Source: Mesotoga prima MesG1.Ag.4.2 (GTDB taxonomy: Bacteria; Thermotogota; Thermotogae; Petrotogales; Kosmotogaceae). From it: 64,000 bases of DNA. The stretch is from assembly GCF_000147715.2 (NCBI RefSeq), contig NC_017934.1:2666001-2730000 (forward strand), in the 5' to 3' direction. Each line of letters opens with the position of its first letter. Position 1 is the stretch's first letter. The notes below the pieces were generated by a model. It saw only the letters and a program-made list of their open reading frames with translations. It made no database searches and had not been told where the DNA came from. Below, piece by piece: positions 4,526 to 45,080 of this stretch. The translations under genes were made by a program, and so were the position numbers.

Positions 4526-5854
4526 GTGATAGACATCTTTGCCGGGTGGTTTTCGGCGCTCGGACTCAGCGAGACTTTCGACTTGGTACTTGCCAATATA
4601 GTTGTCGGAATAATAATGGTAGTCGTGGCCTTTCTCTCGAAATTCCTCTTCGAGAAGCTGCTGATCAAGCCCATAGAAATCATTGTGAGAAGGTCCGCGT
4701 TCAAGTGGGACGATTATTTAATCAAGCACAGACTTCTCTACAAGATAGCACTGATGATACCGGCAATAGTTATCGCTCTCTTCGCCCGGGCATTCCCCGC
4801 GATAGAGGACTTGATCTACAAACTGGTCGCCACGTATCTAATATTCATCGTCGCCGTCGTGATAGACTCCTTCCTGGACGTCTTGACGAGCGCCTATCAG
4901 TCCCTTGAAACCTCAAAAGACAAACCTATAAAGAGCTATATTACCGTAGTGAAGATCATGGTCTACATTGTGGCCGGGGTTATTGCGGTATCAGTGCTGA
5001 CTGGAATCTCTCCATGGGGAATCCTTAGCGGGATCGGAGCGATGACGGCAGTTCTGCTGGTAGTCTTCCGCGACTCGCTTCTAGGACTCGTCGCAAGCAT
5101 ACAGATTTCGAAGAACAATCTCGTCAGCATAGGCGACTGGATAGAGGTTCCGAAATTTCAGGCCGACGGAGACGTTATAGACATAACGCTTACCACAATC
5201 AGGATCCAGAACTGGGACAAAACGATCACCACCATCCCCTCCTACGCGATAATCTCGGAATCCTTCAAGAACTGGAAGGGAATGTTTCAGGCCGGAGGAA
5301 GAAGGATAAAGAGATCGGTCTTCATTGACACCTCGTCGATTCGCTTTCTCGACGACGAGCTTTACGAAAGGCTTTACAGGATCGAGATCCTCAGACCCTA
5401 TCTGGAAAGCAAAAAGAAAGAGATAGAGGAATTCAACAAGAAAAACAATGTAGATGTGAGCGAACCCGTCAACGGCAGGAAAATGACCAACATTGGAACC
5501 TTCAGGGCCTATCTCATGGCATATCTGAGAAATCTCCCGGGAACGAACAAGAACATGATAATCATGGTAAGGCAGCTTCAGCCAACCGACACCGGGCTTC
5601 CTCTGGAAATATACGCCTTCAGCAGCGATACTTCTTGGGTGAACTACGAAGCTTTGCAGTCGGACATCTTCGATCACGTCTTCGCCGCACTGCCACACTT
5701 CGGTCTCCGGGTCTTCCAGAATCCTACGGGAAGAGATGTGAGGGCTCTGGGCGAACTTTTCGTAAGCGGCAAGATGGCTGTTCCGCACCCGTCTGCCGGA
5801 GAGAAATCCGCCACTATAAACAACGACGAAGACCGGCAAATAGATTATCATTAG
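4526..5854 (+). CDS. MscS-family mechanosensitive ion channel (large form)
   Basis: The 442-residue membrane protein has about five hydrophobic segments in the first ~185 residues. The MscS pore/beta-domain follows (GIGAMTAVLLVVFRDSLLGL, then ISKNNLVSIGDWIEVP) with a long cytosolic C-terminus. This architecture resembles the YbdG/YnaI group rather than the 280-residue MscS type. Such channels open under membrane tension and release solutes on hypo-osmotic shock. The start is GTG at 4526 with GGAGG at 4513-4517. Its end faces the convergent osmoprotectant transporter operon, so uptake and release functions lie side by side. Confidence 0.9.
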   Translation: MIDIFAGWFSALGLSETFDLVLANIVVGIIMVVVAFLSKFLFEKLLIKPIEIIVRRSAFKWDDYLIKHRLLYKIALMIPAIVIALFARAFPAIEDLIYKLVATYLIFIVAVVIDSFLDVLTSAYQSLETSKDKPIKSYITVVKIMVYIVAGVIAVSVLTGISPWGILSGIGAMTAVLLVVFRDSLLGLVASIQISKNNLVSIGDWIEVPKFQADGDVIDITLTTIRIQNWDKTITTIPSYAIISESFKNWKGMFQAGGRRIKRSVFIDTSSIRFLDDELYERLYRIEILRPYLESKKKEIEEFNKKNNVDVSEPVNGRKMTNIGTFRAYLMAYLRNLPGTNKNMIIMVRQLQPTDTGLPLEIYAFSSDTSWVNYEALQSDIFDHVFAALPHFGLRVFQNPTGRDVRALGELFVSGKMAVPHPSAGEKSATINNDEDRQIDYH

Positions 5855-6616: not shown

Positions 6617-7694
6617 TTCTCGTCAACTCCTGAATCTTCGCTAGGCTTATCTGACCGAGAAAGCGTCCCGATTTCTCCACGACGGGGAGTGCCACTGTAC
6701 CGCTCTCAAGCATCCTAGAAAGCGCCTCTTTGACAGTGCTGTCGGGGCTCAAAACCTCCTCCTCGAGCATTTCAGTCAATGCCTCCCTGATGGGCAACTC
6801 CCTGTTTGAATGCGAGACATCCACCCAACCGACAAGTCTCCTCTCTTCATCCAGCGCCCAGATGAACTCCTCTTTCGTCATACCAAGCTGGTCCCAGTTG
6901 CCGTCGACGTCTATCGTCTCGCACTTTTCTATGTATTCTGTGACCGGTATTCTGGAGAGCCTCTTTAGGGCCCTGTCGGACCCCATGAAATCGTGAACGA
7001 ACTTCTCTTTAGGTCTTGCCAGAATCTCTTCGGGGGTATCGAACTGAAGTATCCTTCCCGCCCTCATGACCGCAATCCTGTCGGCAAGCCTTATCGCCTC
7101 GTCTATATCGTGAGTTACGAAGACTATCGTCTTATGAAGCTCCTCTTGAATCCTGGCGAACTCGTCCTGCAGTCTCACCCTCGTTAGGGGATCGACCGCC
7201 CCGAAAGGTTCATCCATAAGGATTATCGGCGGGTCGGCCGCAAGCGCTCTCGCGACGCCCACTCTCTGGGCTTCCCCTCCCGAAAGCTCTTTGGGGAGCT
7301 TGTTTGCGTAGGACCTCGGCTCAAGCCCGACTAATTCGAGCAGTTCGCTTACCCTTCTCTCTATCTTCGATTTTTCCCATTTCAGCAGTTTGGGAACGGT
7401 CGCGATGTTATCCTTCACGGACATATGTGGAAAGAGACCTACGTTCTGGATGACGTAGCCTATCCCTCTTCTTAGACTCATGACATCCATTTCCTTCACA
7501 TCTTCTCCATCGATGAGGATCCTGCCGCCGCTAGGTTTAACGATTCTGTTTATCATCTTGAGAGTCGTCGTCTTACCGCACCCAGACGGCCCAATAAGAA
7601 CGGTGAGCTCTCTCGAGGGTATTTCGAATGTTATATCTCTCACAGCTACGGTCTCTTCATCGTATTCCTTCGTGACATTCTCGAATCTAATCAT
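6600..7694 (-). CDS. Osmoprotectant ABC transporter ATPase with CBS pair (OpuCA type)
   Basis: The protein has 364 residues. The ABC domain shows Walker A GPSGCGKTT, signature LSGGEAQRVGVARAL, Walker B IILMDEPFGAVD and the switch His in VFVTHD. The last ~110 residues form tandem CBS domains (LGMTKEEFIWALDEE to SLAKIQEL), as in OpuA/OpuC ATPases where they sense ionic strength or cyclic di-AMP. GGAGGTGGCCG precedes the ATG. The start overlaps the preceding permease gene by eight bases, and the end overlaps the next permease. It energises uptake of glycine betaine, carnitine or choline. Confidence 0.94.
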   Translation of the reverse strand: MIRFENVTKEYDEETVAVRDITFEIPSRELTVLIGPSGCGKTTTLKMINRIVKPSGGRILIDGEDVKEMDVMSLRRGIGYVIQNVGLFPHMSVKDNIATVPKLLKWEKSKIERRVSELLELVGLEPRSYANKLPKELSGGEAQRVGVARALAADPPIILMDEPFGAVDPLTRVRLQDEFARIQEELHKTIVFVTHDIDEAIRLADRIAVMRAGRILQFDTPEEILARPKEKFVHDFMGSDRALKRLSRIPVTEYIEKCETIDVDGNWDQLGMTKEEFIWALDEERRLVGWVDVSHSNRELPIREALTEMLEEEVLSPDSTVKEALSRMLESGTVALPVVEKSGRFLGQISLAKIQELTRSDREE

Positions 7695-8862
7695 CGGCCA
7701 CCTCCGAAACGAGCCCTCTGGGCGTCAGAATAGCTATCAACAATTGCATAAGAGAATCGACTATCAGGGCAAGCGCCACGATCGGCAACGCTCCGAGAAG
7801 TACGAGATCCATGGCGGCCTGGCCAAGACCCTGAAAAACGAAGACCCCAAGACCCCCGGCTCCAATGAGCGCGGCCATCGTCGTATTGCCCACCGCCTGG
7901 ACGGCCGCCGTTCTTACTCCTGCAAGAACTACCGGCAGCGAGATCGGAATCTCCACCTTTCCTAGGACCTGCAACCTGCTCATCCCCATGGCCCTGGCGG
8001 CCTCAACCGTATCGGCCGGAATGACTTTCAGACTCGAGTAAGTATTTCTAACGATAGGAAGGAGTGAATAGAGAACGAGGGCTATCATAGCTGGCGCCCA
8101 GCCGACTCCCGTTATCCCGAGCTCCCTCAGGAAGGGGAGACTCCGAGAGAGATACGACAGCGGCGCTATGAGAAGCCCGAAAAGCGCTATGCTCGGAATC
8201 GTCTGTATGAAATTCACCACACCAAAGACCGGTTTCTCGACCTTTGGCAAGCTGTTGGCCGCCACTCCAAGGGGCACTCCGATTATCACCCCAGCCACTA
8301 CGGCTCCGCCGGCGATCAGAAGATGCCGTACAGTCTCTTCGAGAAACCTGTCGCTCCTGTTTGCGTACTCCTTCATGATCGCTAGCTCCCTGAGATGACC
8401 GGAGCCGAGAAGAACTGCGAACGAAGCGATTGGGATCAGAACGAGCAGTGACGACAGTATCCTCTTATCCTTCAGTTTCCTTCTTGCCGCAAAGACGACC
8501 ACATAACCGGCCAGAAGGAGAATCCACAAGCCGGTGGAAGGGGAGACTCTGGCAAACGGCCCCGTTTCCGAGGCGATTTGAATCGCGCTGCTACCTGCAA
8601 GGAAGAAACCGTATACCGGGGCGAGCCCACCTGCAAGGCCCATCAAGAAGTAGTATCCGCTGAAAGAAAGCAAGATGGTGACACCAGAGAACGCCAGAAG
8701 AACCACGAGGCCAATTACGGAAACCCTGGCCAGGCTGACCGGCAAAGCTGCGGAAATTCTCGTCTCCTTCACCGAAAGAAAACCTGGAAGCAGTATAGAA
8801 AACAACATGATGGCCACTCCAAGAATGGCCATCATATCTTTTCGTCGCGCAAAGGACGCCAT
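7687..8862 (-). CDS. Osmoprotectant ABC transporter permease with extended N-terminus
   Basis: The protein has 391 residues. The C-terminal ~210 residues are the BPD permease domain with the EAA-type loop (DTVEAARAMGMSRLQVLGKVEIPISLPVVL). Unlike the 247-residue partner, it carries about 170 extra N-terminal residues with five or so hydrophobic segments, a feature of some ProW/YehY-type permeases. A clear ribosome binding site is lacking before the ATG at 8862, so translation may be coupled to the binding-protein gene five bases upstream. An internal start at the MM pair (residues 10-11) is possible. Confidence 0.9.
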   Translation of the reverse strand: MASFARRKDMMAILGVAIMLFSILLPGFLSVKETRISAALPVSLARVSVIGLVVLLAFSGVTILLSFSGYYFLMGLAGGLAPVYGFFLAGSSAIQIASETGPFARVSPSTGLWILLLAGYVVVFAARRKLKDKRILSSLLVLIPIASFAVLLGSGHLRELAIMKEYANRSDRFLEETVRHLLIAGGAVVAGVIIGVPLGVAANSLPKVEKPVFGVVNFIQTIPSIALFGLLIAPLSYLSRSLPFLRELGITGVGWAPAMIALVLYSLLPIVRNTYSSLKVIPADTVEAARAMGMSRLQVLGKVEIPISLPVVLAGVRTAAVQAVGNTTMAALIGAGGLGVFVFQGLGQAAMDLVLLGALPIVALALIVDSLMQLLIAILTPRGLVSEVADD

Positions 8863-37646: not shown

Positions 37647-39755
37647 ATGAAAAAAGAGAATTGGTCGAAGATCTGTGGAACTCCCCGGTTGATTTCGGCC
37701 GAGATCCACTACTTCAGACTCGAGCCCGGAGAGTGGAGAGAGAGGATTGAAAAAGCGAAGGAAGCCGGCTGCGACGCGATAGCTTCCTACATTCCCTGGC
37801 TCTGTCACGAGAGCGTCGAAGGAAGATACGATTTCACCGGGAGGCTAGACCTGAGAGCCTTCGTGGAGCTTGCTAAGGATTTGGGGCTTTACTTCATAGC
37901 CAGACCGGGTCCCTTCGTCATGGCAGAGCTAAAAAACGAAGGGATCCCACACTGGCTGTACGATAAGCACCCACATCTCAGACCCCTCAGCTGGGAAGGA
38001 AGAAAAGTCGAGAGCGCCATGGTCATCTACAACCACCCGGACTTTCTCGCAGAGGTCGAAAAATGGTACGACAGAGTGGGGGAGATCCTCGGACCGTTGC
38101 TGGTCGGTAGGGGAGGAAACGTTGTGGCCGTCCAGCTGGATAATGAGATAGGCATGCTTCAGTGGGTCAACAACACGCCCGATCTTTCGGACTTCACGCT
38201 CGCGAGGTTCAACGACCGGGTCTCGGAGAAGCGCGGCCGGGAGCCCTACGGCTTCGCGCTTGAGAAGCGCGATGAAACTTACAGGCTCCTCCGCAGCCCG
38301 GGAGAAGATTTCTCGCTGGAGTTCATACGCGACCTCGGCCAGTTCACGCGCGAGGATTACAGAGAGTACGTGCAGAACCTGAAACAGTTGGCCAAGAGGG
38401 CCGGCCTCGAAGGTATCCCCTATATAGTCAACATTCACGGTACGTCCGAAGGAAGGGGCTTCACCTTCCCGATAGGCATCAGCCAGCTTTACAAAGCCTG
38501 CGACGACGAGGAGGTCTTCCCCTCTAGCGATATCTATCTGGGAGATCTCTCCTTGAGGAACTTCCAGGACCTCTACACGATAAACGAAACGCTCGCGGCC
38601 GCCTGCGGGGGAGTTTATGGTTCCATGGAATTCGAGTGCGGCGACGGCAATTACGGGGACAACTACGGGCAGAGGATTGACCCTTACTCGCTGGAGCACA
38701 AGCTAAAGCTCTGCATCGCCCAGGGGAACCGATTGATCAACTACTACCTCTTCTCGGGAGGAAGAAACTATGTCCTTGATCCCGAGCCACTCGACGGCAA
38801 CGGAAGGATAGCCTTCACCGGCGAGCTCCACGGCTTTGCGGCCCCGATCTCTCCTACGGGCGCGGAAAACTACACCTACGGCTTCCTGAAGGAAGCGACG
38901 CTCTCCCTCAAACCACTGACGAGAAACATGGGCAATCTCTCGGTAAGCCATGATCCTCTGACGGTGGCCTTCATTCCGGACTATTTCATGAGCGAGTACC
39001 GTTACGGGACGAGATCCGGAGAGATGATTTCCGATCTCCAAACTCACCGGGCGGGCAACTTCTGGGACAGCTTCCTCAAGGCACTCCTGCTGCTGGGATA
39101 CCGCTACGACGTGAAGAATATACAGGATGGAGAAATCGATCCCGAAAGGCTGCTGATCCTTCCATGTGCGAGGTATCTGGACGTTGCGATCCAGAGAAAG
39201 ATCGCGGATCATGTCGAACGCGGGGGAAGGCTGCTGATTTACGGGGAGGTGCCTCTCTTCGATATGACCGGCAGAGTTTGCAGGGAACTGATTGAGGCTC
39301 TCGGCATAACTCCCGGGGAAGCTTACCGTTCCTCTAGCAAATATTTCCTCTCGGTGAAACCTTTGGGTTTGCCGGAACTGGCCACGCATTTCGCCCGGGC
39401 CTTCAGAATAGAAGGGGGCGAAGAGCTCGCCGTAATAGCCCAGAAGGGCGAAACGTGCGCCGCCAGAGTCGGAAGCACAACGGTCATAACTGCCCATTTC
39501 AACTGCAACACTGGCTTCTTCGGCCGAATTCTCGAGGGCTACGGATTGAAACCGAAGATCTCCATGACGGGCGATTCCTTCGGGGTTTTCCCCGTCGTGA
39601 GCGTCGGTGATCGTGGAGAGAGACTCGTTTACGTCTTCAACGAAGATAACTTCGAAAGGCGTATTGGGCTCCGCTTCGAAGAGGAGCCGCTTTTCGGGGG
39701 GAAGGAGCTACTTCTCAGGGCTAGGGAGGTGGCTGTGGAGATGCGTTACCCCTGA
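37647..39755 (+). CDS. GH35 glycoside hydrolase, divergent copy
   Basis: The cytosolic protein has 702 residues and is related to the GH35 enzyme at 32217-34307. It shows SAEIHYFRLEPGEWRERIEK, SYIPWLCHESVEG, RPGPFVMAELKNEGIPHWL, acid/base Glu in VVAVQLDNEIGMLQWV, and a likely nucleophile Glu in YGSMEFECGDGNYGD. The beta-rich C-terminal part ends in a galactosidase-like jelly-roll. GAAGGTGA precedes the ATG. It is transcribed away from lacI from a promoter with a degenerate operator. Two GH35 enzymes with the same unusual LDNE motif suggest two steps or two linkages of one substrate. Confidence 0.87.
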   Translation: MKKENWSKICGTPRLISAEIHYFRLEPGEWRERIEKAKEAGCDAIASYIPWLCHESVEGRYDFTGRLDLRAFVELAKDLGLYFIARPGPFVMAELKNEGIPHWLYDKHPHLRPLSWEGRKVESAMVIYNHPDFLAEVEKWYDRVGEILGPLLVGRGGNVVAVQLDNEIGMLQWVNNTPDLSDFTLARFNDRVSEKRGREPYGFALEKRDETYRLLRSPGEDFSLEFIRDLGQFTREDYREYVQNLKQLAKRAGLEGIPYIVNIHGTSEGRGFTFPIGISQLYKACDDEEVFPSSDIYLGDLSLRNFQDLYTINETLAAACGGVYGSMEFECGDGNYGDNYGQRIDPYSLEHKLKLCIAQGNRLINYYLFSGGRNYVLDPEPLDGNGRIAFTGELHGFAAPISPTGAENYTYGFLKEATLSLKPLTRNMGNLSVSHDPLTVAFIPDYFMSEYRYGTRSGEMISDLQTHRAGNFWDSFLKALLLLGYRYDVKNIQDGEIDPERLLILPCARYLDVAIQRKIADHVERGGRLLIYGEVPLFDMTGRVCRELIEALGITPGEAYRSSSKYFLSVKPLGLPELATHFARAFRIEGGEELAVIAQKGETCAARVGSTTVITAHFNCNTGFFGRILEGYGLKPKISMTGDSFGVFPVVSVGDRGERLVYVFNEDNFERRIGLRFEEEPLFGGKELLLRAREVAVEMRYP

Positions 39756-39765
39756 AGGTGAAGAG

Positions 39766-40082
39766 ATGAATTACGGACGGCTCAACGCAGACCTGATCGA
39801 AGAGTTACAATCACTACTCAACATCCCCGTCAAATACGATGAGGAAGTGTCGGAGATCATGAAATTTGCAAACAGGCACTTGATTCCAGTTACCCCAAGA
39901 GGTGCGGCAACGGGCCTTTCGGGAGGCGCGGTGCCCTCATACCGTGGAATCGTCATGAGTTTCGAGAAGATGAACAGGATTCTCAAGTTCGACGAAGCAA
40001 ACATGATGACCTGATTCGAGGCATAAAAAAGGCCTTTGATCGAAACAACATACTCAATCCGGGGAAAATAGTGGATCTTTGA
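39766..40082 (+). pseudogene. Internally deleted glycolate oxidase/D-lactate dehydrogenase (GlcD-type) remnant
   Basis: The first 82 codons match the N-terminus of FAD-linked oxidases of the GlcD type (YDEEVSEIMKFANRHLIPVT, then PRGAATGLSGGAVP, the FAD-binding loop) and stop at 40012-40014. Immediately after, in another frame, the sequence encodes the family's extreme C-terminus (LIRGIKKAFDRNN, ILNPGKIVDL) ending at 40082. About 350 codons of the middle are missing. The gene was therefore cut by a single internal deletion. The remnant lies 11 bases after the GH35 gene and directly before repeat region II. Confidence 0.85.
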
Positions 40083-40087
40083 AAAGA

Positions 40088-41030
40088 AACCGAGGGTAGA
40101 GGTCAGTGGTCAGAGGTTGGAAGAGCAAGAGCTGGTCCGCCGTTCAATGGTTCACCGTTCTCCGAAAAGAATTGTTGCAAGTTCCAAGATGCAAGTTGCA
40201 ACAAGAAGAAAGAAGACTTTTTTCTAAAGGGCGATGAGGTAAGCTCGTTTTTGGCATTCAACAAGACAGCATCGAGTGCCGAATCACGTTCAGATGACGG
40301 TATGTGACGTTTTCGCAATCACGTAACACTGTCATCCCGGACTTGATCCGGGATCTGGGCTTCGGTTTTTTCTCAGCTGAAGACGGTGGACCGTTGACCG
40401 GCGACGCTGTTTTCATCATCGTACTGTGGTTCTTTAGGATCCTCGAGATGCTGAAGCAAGTTCATGACGCCAAGCACGGGGTATCGATAACAGGGTATGG
40501 GGTCTCGCGAAAAGAACCGGCAATCGATTCAGGGTTTCAATGCAGCTGAGGAAGTTGTCCAGGCAGCGGTTTGTGGAAGCCCCTCACTCTGTCATCCCGA
40601 ACTTGTTTCGGGATCTGGTTCCAAGAACGAACAACCTGGACGCGTAGCGTCGGAACGAAGAACAGGTGCTTCTTGGCGGCGGTGGACCGTTGACGGATAA
40701 CGCTGTTTTCATCAGCCACCAGCGGGTTTTTGCTCTTAAGCGCTCAGCGGTTCTTTTGTTCGCAATTTGGAACGGACTACTTGCAACTGCTCTTCTAAGG
40801 ACGGATCCTTGCTCTTGAAGGACCAAGGACGGCTTCTTTCAGCATGACTGTAAGTGCCGTTCTCGCAATCACGTAACACTGTCATCCCGGACTTGATCCG
40901 GGATCTGGTTCCAAGAACGAACAACCTGGACGCGTAGCGTCGGAACGAAGAACAGGTCTTCTCGAAGGACGGGTCCATGATCTTGGACGAGCAACGAAGG
41001 ATGTCTCTTCACAGCGTTCAGTGGATCTTG
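40088..41030. repeat. Mosaic repeat region II (families A, B, C, D)
   Basis: Blocks shared with region I are found here in a different order. Family A is at 40092-40300, family C at 40428-40618 (more diverged), and family D at 40681-40957, nearly identical to 14477-14753 over about 277 bases. The palindromic core of family B is at 40331, 40591 (variant) and 40881. Family B cores are often followed by a second small palindrome (GACGC-GTA-GCGTC). No protein-coding gene or transposase is present. Confidence 0.9.
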
Positions 41031-43216: not shown

Positions 43217-43251
43217 AGGAATCATTGACAGACTCAATTGGAGGTGTAAGA

Positions 43252-45027
43252 ATGAAATCTTCTATTCCCAAGAAAGTCGTTTTCTCCATTATTCTTGTCC
43301 TTTTTCTCTCATCAATTGCGCTGGCTCAGCCAATTACCTTCCTCGTGAATCCCGATTACGATCCCTTCAGCTACCTTGAGGAAGGCCATCTGAAGGGCTT
43401 CCTCGTCGATCTGATCGGATCGCTTGAAAGCGAAACGGGCATAGATGTCGAGATGAAGCCCGTCAAATTTGACGAAGCCCTCGAGATGTTACAGGGCGAA
43501 GGGAGTTACTGCATTCCCTCTCTTGTCTTCACGACACAGAGGAAAGCTCTTTATCAATGGGCGGGTCCCGTTGCCATAACGAACACTTACCTCTACACGA
43601 CCGAGGAACTTTCGGGTGAATTCAAATCACTCGAGGACGCCAGAAACGCAAACTCCGTCGGTGTGGTAAGCGAATACTATTCCCACAAACTGTTGGAGGG
43701 GCAGGGATTCGACAACCTTATCGTTTTTGAAGACGAAGGGTCGTTGCTTGAAGCCCTTCTTGAAGGAGAGATCGAACTGGCGCCTTTCAACTCGGCAGTT
43801 CTCCAGGAACTTCTCAAAAGGGAACAAGCCTCTTATAGTCCCGTATCGACAGTCGTGATCGACCTGGATATGACATACCTCGGTTTCTCGAAGGAAGTCC
43901 CGACTGAAATCGTAGACGCATTCCAGAAGGCCCTCGACGGGCTCAAGACATCCGGCTCCTTCTCCGAGCTCTACAGCGAATGGTTCCCCGGACAGCCCGT
44001 TCCCGGCATCTACACCTTCCTGACCGAAGAGTACCCGCCGGTAACCTTCAGGGGCGAAGACGGAGAACCGACGGGCTTCGTGACCGAAATGGTAAAGGAG
44101 ATCCTACGCAGAAACGACATGTCTGCCGAGATCCTTATCGTTCCATGGTCCCTCGGTTATGAACTGGCCTCGAATCTGCCCAATGTCTTCCTATTCAGCA
44201 TGGACCAGACCGAGCAGAGAAAGGAAAACTTCGAGTGGATCGGACCGGTAGGAAAGAACACCGCTTACCTCTACGGCCGCAAAGACACTCCAGCCACAGA
44301 CCTCGAGTCAGCAAAGCGAGTCGACGCCATAGGTACGACGACGAACTGGTGGACCGAACAGCTCCTAAAGGAAATGGGCTTCGAGAACCTCGTTAGCTCT
44401 CTCGATCCTCTGGACACCGTCGCGCAACTTGTCGAAGGCGAGACCGATCTCGCGGTCTTCACAGACCTTACTGTAGCAGAACTGGCAGATGAAGCAGGCT
44501 ACAGCATCGACGACCTGGAAGCTCTTGTGGAGCTCCAAACAAACTACTTCTACATCGCGGCTTCAAAGGGAACGAATCTCGGACTGATTTTGAACTTCCA
44601 GAAGACTCTCAACGAAATGAAGCGAGATGGAAGCTTCGAAGAGACAATCAGAGAATTCGTGCCAAACATGCTCGTGACATCCCTGCTCTGGAATTCCTCC
44701 CAGCTCGATGTAAAGGGTCTTCGAACCTCCATGAACACCCTCTCTGTAGGAGAGATAGCCACCATGGAACTCCAGGAGAACGGCTCGACCGGTTATGTCT
44801 GGGACGTGAAGATTACCAATCCAAACGTCGTTTCGCTGATCTACGAGGGCTCGATCTTCGAAGGGAAGTTTCTTGACGATTCAGAACTCGTTGGAGCTCC
44901 CTATAATGTCAAGTGGGTATTCGAAGCCAAACAACCCGGAGAGACAGTTGTCATATTCTCCCTAAGGCGCCCCTGGGAGAGCGTTCATCCAATACAGACC
45001 TTTGCGATAAACATAATAGTCGAGTAA
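43252..45027 (+). CDS. Tandem family 3 solute-binding protein fused to a chagasin-like protease inhibitor domain
   Basis: The exported protein has 591 residues. A signal peptide (MKSSIPKKVVFSIILVLFLSSIALA) precedes two family 3 binding domains, about 25-245 (ITFLVNPDYDPFSYLEEGHL) and 246-480 (GIYTFLTEEYPPVTFRGEDG). The last ~100 residues carry the three loop motifs of chagasin (I42) cysteine-protease inhibitors: NGSTGYVW, VGAPYNVKWVF and RRPWE. The ATG at 43252 has GGAGGTG just upstream; an earlier in-frame start at 43225 lacks one. The gene has its own promoter and terminator and no permease genes nearby, so it may be a sensor or surface protein rather than part of a transporter. Confidence 0.85.
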   Translation: MKSSIPKKVVFSIILVLFLSSIALAQPITFLVNPDYDPFSYLEEGHLKGFLVDLIGSLESETGIDVEMKPVKFDEALEMLQGEGSYCIPSLVFTTQRKALYQWAGPVAITNTYLYTTEELSGEFKSLEDARNANSVGVVSEYYSHKLLEGQGFDNLIVFEDEGSLLEALLEGEIELAPFNSAVLQELLKREQASYSPVSTVVIDLDMTYLGFSKEVPTEIVDAFQKALDGLKTSGSFSELYSEWFPGQPVPGIYTFLTEEYPPVTFRGEDGEPTGFVTEMVKEILRRNDMSAEILIVPWSLGYELASNLPNVFLFSMDQTEQRKENFEWIGPVGKNTAYLYGRKDTPATDLESAKRVDAIGTTTNWWTEQLLKEMGFENLVSSLDPLDTVAQLVEGETDLAVFTDLTVAELADEAGYSIDDLEALVELQTNYFYIAASKGTNLGLILNFQKTLNEMKRDGSFEETIREFVPNMLVTSLLWNSSQLDVKGLRTSMNTLSVGEIATMELQENGSTGYVWDVKITNPNVVSLIYEGSIFEGKFLDDSELVGAPYNVKWVFEAKQPGETVVIFSLRRPWESVHPIQTFAINIIVE

Positions 45028-45049: not shown

Positions 45050-45080
45050 AAACAGGAAGGATGTCTATCCTTCCTGTTTA
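45050..45080 (+). terminator. Intrinsic terminator of the fusion gene
   Basis: The perfect 13-base stem AAACAGGAAGGAT (45050-45062) with ATCCTTCCTGTTT (45067-45079) has loop GTCT and lies 22 bases after the stop codon. Confidence 0.85.

Follow-up and report, generated by a model that had tools for sequence, protein, structure and literature searches.

Chagasin-type cysteine peptidase inhibitors (MEROPS family I42), which include chagasin, the ICP of Pseudomonas aeruginosa (2wgn), Cip1 of P. syringae and EhICP2 of E. histolytica, are small free proteins, and those of bacteria carry an export signal. P. syringae Cip1 inhibits papain with a Ki of 4 nM in a manner that depends on its NPTTG motif (PMC5014320), and in chagasin itself mutation of T31 or W93 lowers affinity 10–100-fold (PMC2607524). 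The Plasmodium ICPs (falstatin and PbICP; 3pnr with falcipain-2) have their chagasin-like domain at the C-terminus, after a signal sequence and a long N-terminal extension. Family 3 solute-binding domains (SBPs) in tandem are known from the transporter GlnPQ (6h30) and as the sensor domains of BvgS, EvgS and CdgH (PMC5431781).

Here we describe a gene of Mesotoga prima MesG1.Ag.4.2 that encodes two family 3 SBPs followed by an I42 domain (Table 1). It lies in a 64,000-nucleotide stretch of contig NC_017934.1 (positions 2,666,001–2,730,000), referred to here as the window, and coordinates are those of the window unless a locus number is given. The first-pass annotation had proposed this combination of domains, and Pfam bore it out: SBP_bac_3 matched two stretches (E=3e-31, well above the cut-off) and Inhibitor_I42 matched residues 496–588 (E=4e-18; 65.8 bits against a gathering cut-off of 27.2). 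Like the bacterial I42 proteins the product has an export signal, but unlike the described members of the family, in which the inhibitor is free, its I42 domain sits behind two SBPs, and it is known from sequence and predicted structure. The overall layout resembles that of the Plasmodium ICPs, although their extension is not an SBP pair and their L2 motif is unlike that of the fusion. Literature searches, which did not reach most subscription journals, found no published description of an SBP–I42 fusion, and the SBP–SBP–I42 combination is apparently undescribed. Based on its sequence and predicted structure we lean, with some reserve, toward reading the product as an exported orphan twin SBP with an active chagasin-family cysteine peptidase inhibitor at its C-terminus.

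Table 1. Features of the SBP–SBP–I42 fusion gene and its product (positions in the window).
Feature	Residues	Position	Strand	Basis and remarks
Shine-Dalgarno-like GGAGGTG		43240..43246	+	Read from sequence
SBP–SBP–I42 fusion gene		43252..45027	+	ATG 43252, stop 45025–45027; read from sequence, Pfam, orthologs
Signal peptide (...IALA^Q)	1–25	43252..43326	+	Read from sequence; hydrophobic helix 7–23 in model; lipobox cysteine absent
Solute-binding domain 1, family 3	28–246	43333..43989	+	Pfam, alignment to AncQR, ArtJ and GlnPQ, conservation, fold
Solute-binding domain 2, family 3	252–470	44005..44661	+	Pfam, alignment to GlnPQ SBD1, conservation, fold
Chagasin-type I42 domain	494–591	44731..45024	+	Pfam, AlphaFold2, Foldseek, phmmer to P. 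aeruginosa ICP and chagasin
Loop L2, ENGSTGY (chagasin SNPTTGF)	509–515	44776..44796	+	Alignment; 6/7 positions invariant in 9 orthologs
Loop L4, ELVGAPYNVKW (chagasin KLLGAGGTEHF)	545–555	44884..44916	+	GxGG variant; 3/11 positions invariant in 9 orthologs
Loop L6, RRPWESVHP (chagasin MRPWTGPSHD)	572–580	44965..44991	+	Alignment; 7/9 positions invariant in 9 orthologs
13-pair hairpin		45050..45079	.	Just 3' of the fusion stop codon; terminator-like on minus strand

The gene is one intact open frame of 591 codons plus the stop, for a protein of 591 aa, and its ATG is the likely start codon because a Shine-Dalgarno sequence lies 5 nt ahead of it. All of the neighboring genes are on the opposite strand (ferredoxin, radical SAM and NifX-type genes to the left, an alpha/beta hydrolase gene to the right) and a hairpin follows the stop codon, so the fusion gene is most likely transcribed alone. 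The identity of these neighbors also led us to reject membership in an ABC transporter operon. Neither the protein nor the adjoining genes inspected supply an ABC permease or ATPase, and none of these genes encodes a C1 peptidase. Elsewhere in the window, the frame at 39607–40014 is a partial duplicate whose sequence corresponds to the beginning of the FAD-oxidase-like gene L082 1521–2927 (MNYGRLNADLIEELQSLLNIPVKYDEE) with an internal deletion, and several frames at 40304–40980 have repeated stretches reading CSSFRRYASRLFVLGTRSRNKFGMTE, probably an interspersed repeat of the genome.

The fusion protein is exported, judging by its signal peptide, which ends in ALA-Q and is without a lipobox, and by the lack of any second membrane segment discernible by eye, and its predicted place is the periplasm, the toga or the outside. 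The earlier suggestion that the protein acts at the surface is uncertain, as the signal peptide accounts for export but would fit any of these three places. The best PDB matches to an AlphaFold2 model of the whole protein, built on eleven orthologs (mean pLDDT 81.5), were the tandem binding domains SBD1–SBD2 of GlnPQ, followed by BvgS and EvgS. Although GlnPQ has the nearest fold to the SBP1–SBP2 half, it includes a transporter membrane domain, whereas the fusion is accompanied by neither permease nor ATPase. Like BvgS, EvgS and CdgH, the fusion places a tandem pair of family 3 domains beyond the inner membrane, but it has no transmembrane segment past the signal peptide and no kinase or GGDEF domain, carrying an I42 domain instead.

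Alignment to GlnPQ SBD1 indicated that SBP2 keeps both of the contact residues, the Arg (R323) and the Asp (D405), and this domain likely binds an amino-acid-like ligand. In SBP1, aligned to AncQR, ArtJ and GlnPQ, the carboxylate-binding Arg is kept (R97) and an Asn (N180) takes the place of the amino-binding Asp; binding of an amino-acid-like ligand is less sure for SBP1 than for SBP2. These residues bear on an alternative in which an amino-acid- or peptide-like ligand would close the SBP lobes and thereby expose or hide the I42 loops, such that extracellular proteolysis is tuned by its products. The retention of the Arg in both domains and the Asp in one, the sensing role of tandem SBPs in BvgS, EvgS and CdgH (PMC5431781), which are among the closest folds, and the retention of the fusion through the divergence of Mesotoga are consistent with ligand gating; however, the linker, residues 471–493, is poorly conserved (35–48% identity between distant orthologs), unlike a finely tuned coupling. 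Argued from sequence and by analogy, gating appears to us quite unlikely, and still less credit can be given to its most specific form, in which occupancy of the twin SBP would switch the chagasin domain on or off so that products feed back on proteolysis beyond the inner membrane, with the cell's own dockerin-bearing papain-like peptidase (see below) as the target. Under the reading that we prefer, an active inhibitor attached to an exported SBP pair, the pair would bind small molecules and be a carrier or localizing partner for the I42 domain.

Structure prediction supported the proposed chagasin fold. The I42 domain alone, modeled with AlphaFold2 on 35 relatives (mean pLDDT 86.5), is predicted to adopt the chagasin Ig-like fold, and all 12 of the PDB matches found by Foldseek at E≤0.001 are I42 inhibitors (EhICP2, chagasin free and complexed, PbICP, amoebiasin and P. 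aeruginosa ICP), among them complexes of chagasin with cathepsin L and with falcipain, with TM values of about 0.7. The first-pass annotation had also reported all three inhibitory loop motifs. The positions of L2, L4 and L6 were upheld, as were the sequences of L2 and L6, but not that of L4, which reads GAPY here and G-x-P/S-Y in orthologs rather than GxGG (GAGG in chagasin). The domain shares the Pfam profile, the predicted fold and the L2 and L6 motifs of the chagasin family and departs from it in L4. The L2 sequence, NGSTGY, is a conservative variant of the NPTTG[FY] motif (consensus N-G/A-S-T-G-Y, with N, S, T, G and Y invariant in 9 orthologs), and the L6 motif RP[WF] is present as RRPW, invariant in the same 9. 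Conservation is higher in L2 and L6 together than elsewhere in the domain, with 13/16 invariant positions vs. 27/82 (Fisher p=4e-4, 9 orthologs). Chagasin Thr32 and Trp93 are kept as T513 and W575, and Thr31 corresponds to Ser512. We took GxGG as typical, not universal, and did not treat it as defining because GGP stands at this position in PbICP, a binder of falcipain-2 (3pnr), and because GAP is usual in the I42 domains of Kosmotogaceae; the classical GxGG occurs in those of family f6, more distant within Thermotogota. It is plausible that the chemistry for inhibition is present in the fusion with an altered L4 contact.

Full-length orthologs with the SBP–SBP–I42 architecture, which is kept at 55–95% identity, occur in eight Mesotoga genomes of our set (G000 included). 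In a ninth (G010) SBP2 and I42 are separated by a frame break (499 + 164 aa), a tenth (G014, 80% complete) has only a 28-aa piece, and another genus of the family (G015, about 90% complete) has a contig-end fragment with the second half of SBP2 and the I42 domain. We considered and rejected a frame or assembly artefact because the fusion recurs in independent genomes and the frame break is found only in G010; the fusion is real, conserved in the genus and old within the lineage. A further genus (G001) has an SBP–SBP gene without I42, adjoining NifX-like and Fe-S/ATPase genes that recall those of the window (named from their sequences by eye). Based on the fact that all ten fused I42 domains group together as a single clade in the tree (support 97/99) and that this distant relative has the SBP pair without I42, the inhibitor domain was probably added once to a pre-existing SBP–SBP gene; its loss in G001 is a possible alternative history. 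The dN/dS of the I42 domain within Mesotoga, about 0.07–0.17, is like that of the SBP domains and shows that it is maintained under constraint.

We dropped the conserved neighborhood as a clue to function, as close Mesotoga and G001 share NifX/Fe-S-type neighbors and the G006/G009 branch has others. A scan of genome contigs for relatives beyond Thermotogota turned up nothing but a single additional Mesotoga record, which is the same as the G013 contig; the nearest named relative was Mesotoga sp. WOFB36 (92% identity). The plasmid matches listed were all to SBPs, and each spanned less than 80% of the query. G012 has, downstream of its fusion gene, regular repeats reading FPYHYGSYAT (L114 about 7259–8784, minus strand), by look a CRISPR array.

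The genome encodes other I42 proteins, among them a free exported 2xI42 protein (L078 5331–6014) and an alpha/beta hydrolase that carries two or three I42-like domains in which the inhibitory loop motifs have been lost (L076 4964–7063, minus strand). The latter adds another unusual I42 fusion to this genome. Since the L076 domains are without loop motifs, not every I42 domain of the genome can be inhibitory. Another 2xI42 gene (L079 about 4825–5412, minus strand, and L016) is apparently a decaying paralogue: it consists of two short frames in G000 and has a stop in G011, while it is intact by frame length in G006, G009 and G012. Across the Kosmotogaceae I42 domains have multiplied in many architectures, some clearly without motifs, and this, along with the L4 variant, would fit a reading of the fused domain as an Ig-like docking or structural domain that has lost inhibition. 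We find this very doubtful, as conservation in the fused domain peaks at L2 and L6 and its L6 (RRPW) is the most classical among the I42 proteins of the genome.

If the domain is an active inhibitor, as we prefer, L2, L4 and L6 would insert into and block the active-site cleft of papain-like (C1) peptidases beyond the inner membrane. The likeliest targets would be exported enzymes of the cell itself, and those of community neighbors are possible too. A C1 gene was sought in the host genome and two kinds, both exported, were found. The first, L077 5663–7174 (minus strand), has intact Gln, Cys, His and Asn motifs, and its matches are to C1 enzymes, cathepsin B and falcipain-2 among them. It carries at its C-terminus a dockerin-like domain, a layout also seen in other Mesotoga; Pfam support for the dockerin in these peptidases is weak. 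The dockerin-like C1 genes lie directly after a lipoprotein gene of 446–496 aa (L077 5663–8483, minus strand; L110 3381–6332, minus strand; L111 793–6612, plus strand), an arrangement present twice in G009. By eye we suspected a cohesin in this lipoprotein, forming a cohesin–dockerin pair that holds the protease, but Pfam finds no cohesin. The second kind comprises large exported repeat proteins of Mesotoga (L080 1991–4840, plus strand; L107 3249–6044, L108 5725–10494 and L109 3956–7294, all minus strand), which end within about 15 residues past the His motif (NHANTIVGYDD) and have an Asn-type motif (KVANSWGxGGWE) that precedes the Cys by about 262 residues, an arrangement constant in four genomes. 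Judged by these motifs, they look like a circularly permuted papain-like domain with the order Asn–Cys–His; the Asn segment searched alone by sequence gave no C1 match.

Among 103 Thermotogota genomes, C1 genes are present in 15 of the 18 that bear I42 and in 20 of the other 85 (p=3e-6), and by genus in 5/6 with I42 vs. 12/32 without (p=0.05), kinship being ignored in both comparisons. This co-occurrence across the phylum is suggestive, and much of it is explained by phylogeny. No C1 gene was detected in three I42-bearing genomes (G015, G005 and G044), and for this reason foreign peptidases are possible targets, by analogy with what has been argued for Pseudomonas. P. aeruginosa and most Pseudomonas have I42 and no C1 target, and the accepted view is that their inhibitors are aimed at foreign enzymes (PMC5014320, PMC2845656). 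This precedent and the same three genomes would also fit a role in which the I42 domain shields the binding protein to which it is fused, or the periplasm generally, against cysteine peptidases of the cell or of foreign origin and has no part in signaling. We consider such shielding unlikely, given that a free inhibitor would suffice and the genome has one in L078.

Overall, we infer inhibition because the I42 Pfam score is far above the cut-off, the PDB matches are exclusively to I42 proteins, the Thr32 and Trp93 equivalents are kept and L2 and L6 are conserved, and because the genome has an intact C1 peptidase, I42 and C1 co-occur and the I42 dN/dS is low. Supporting this expectation is the fact that inhibition by a bacterial I42 protein is established for P. 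syringae Cip1. Weighing against an active inhibitor are the L4 without GxGG, the fall of the co-occurrence to p=0.05 by genus, the three I42 genomes, including the fusion-bearing G015, without a detected C1 gene, the absence of a C1 gene adjoining the fusion and the loss of loop motifs in L076; in addition, an Ig-like fold is readily co-opted to bind other partners.

Little is settled about what chagasin-type inhibitors do in bacteria, because the best-studied cases, those of Pseudomonas, are without a C1 target. The Mesotoga lineage has I42 domains in several architectures along with its own exported C1 peptidases, making endogenous vs. foreign targets testable in one organism. If it is true that ligand binding affects inhibition, the fusion would be a natural metabolite-controlled protease inhibitor.
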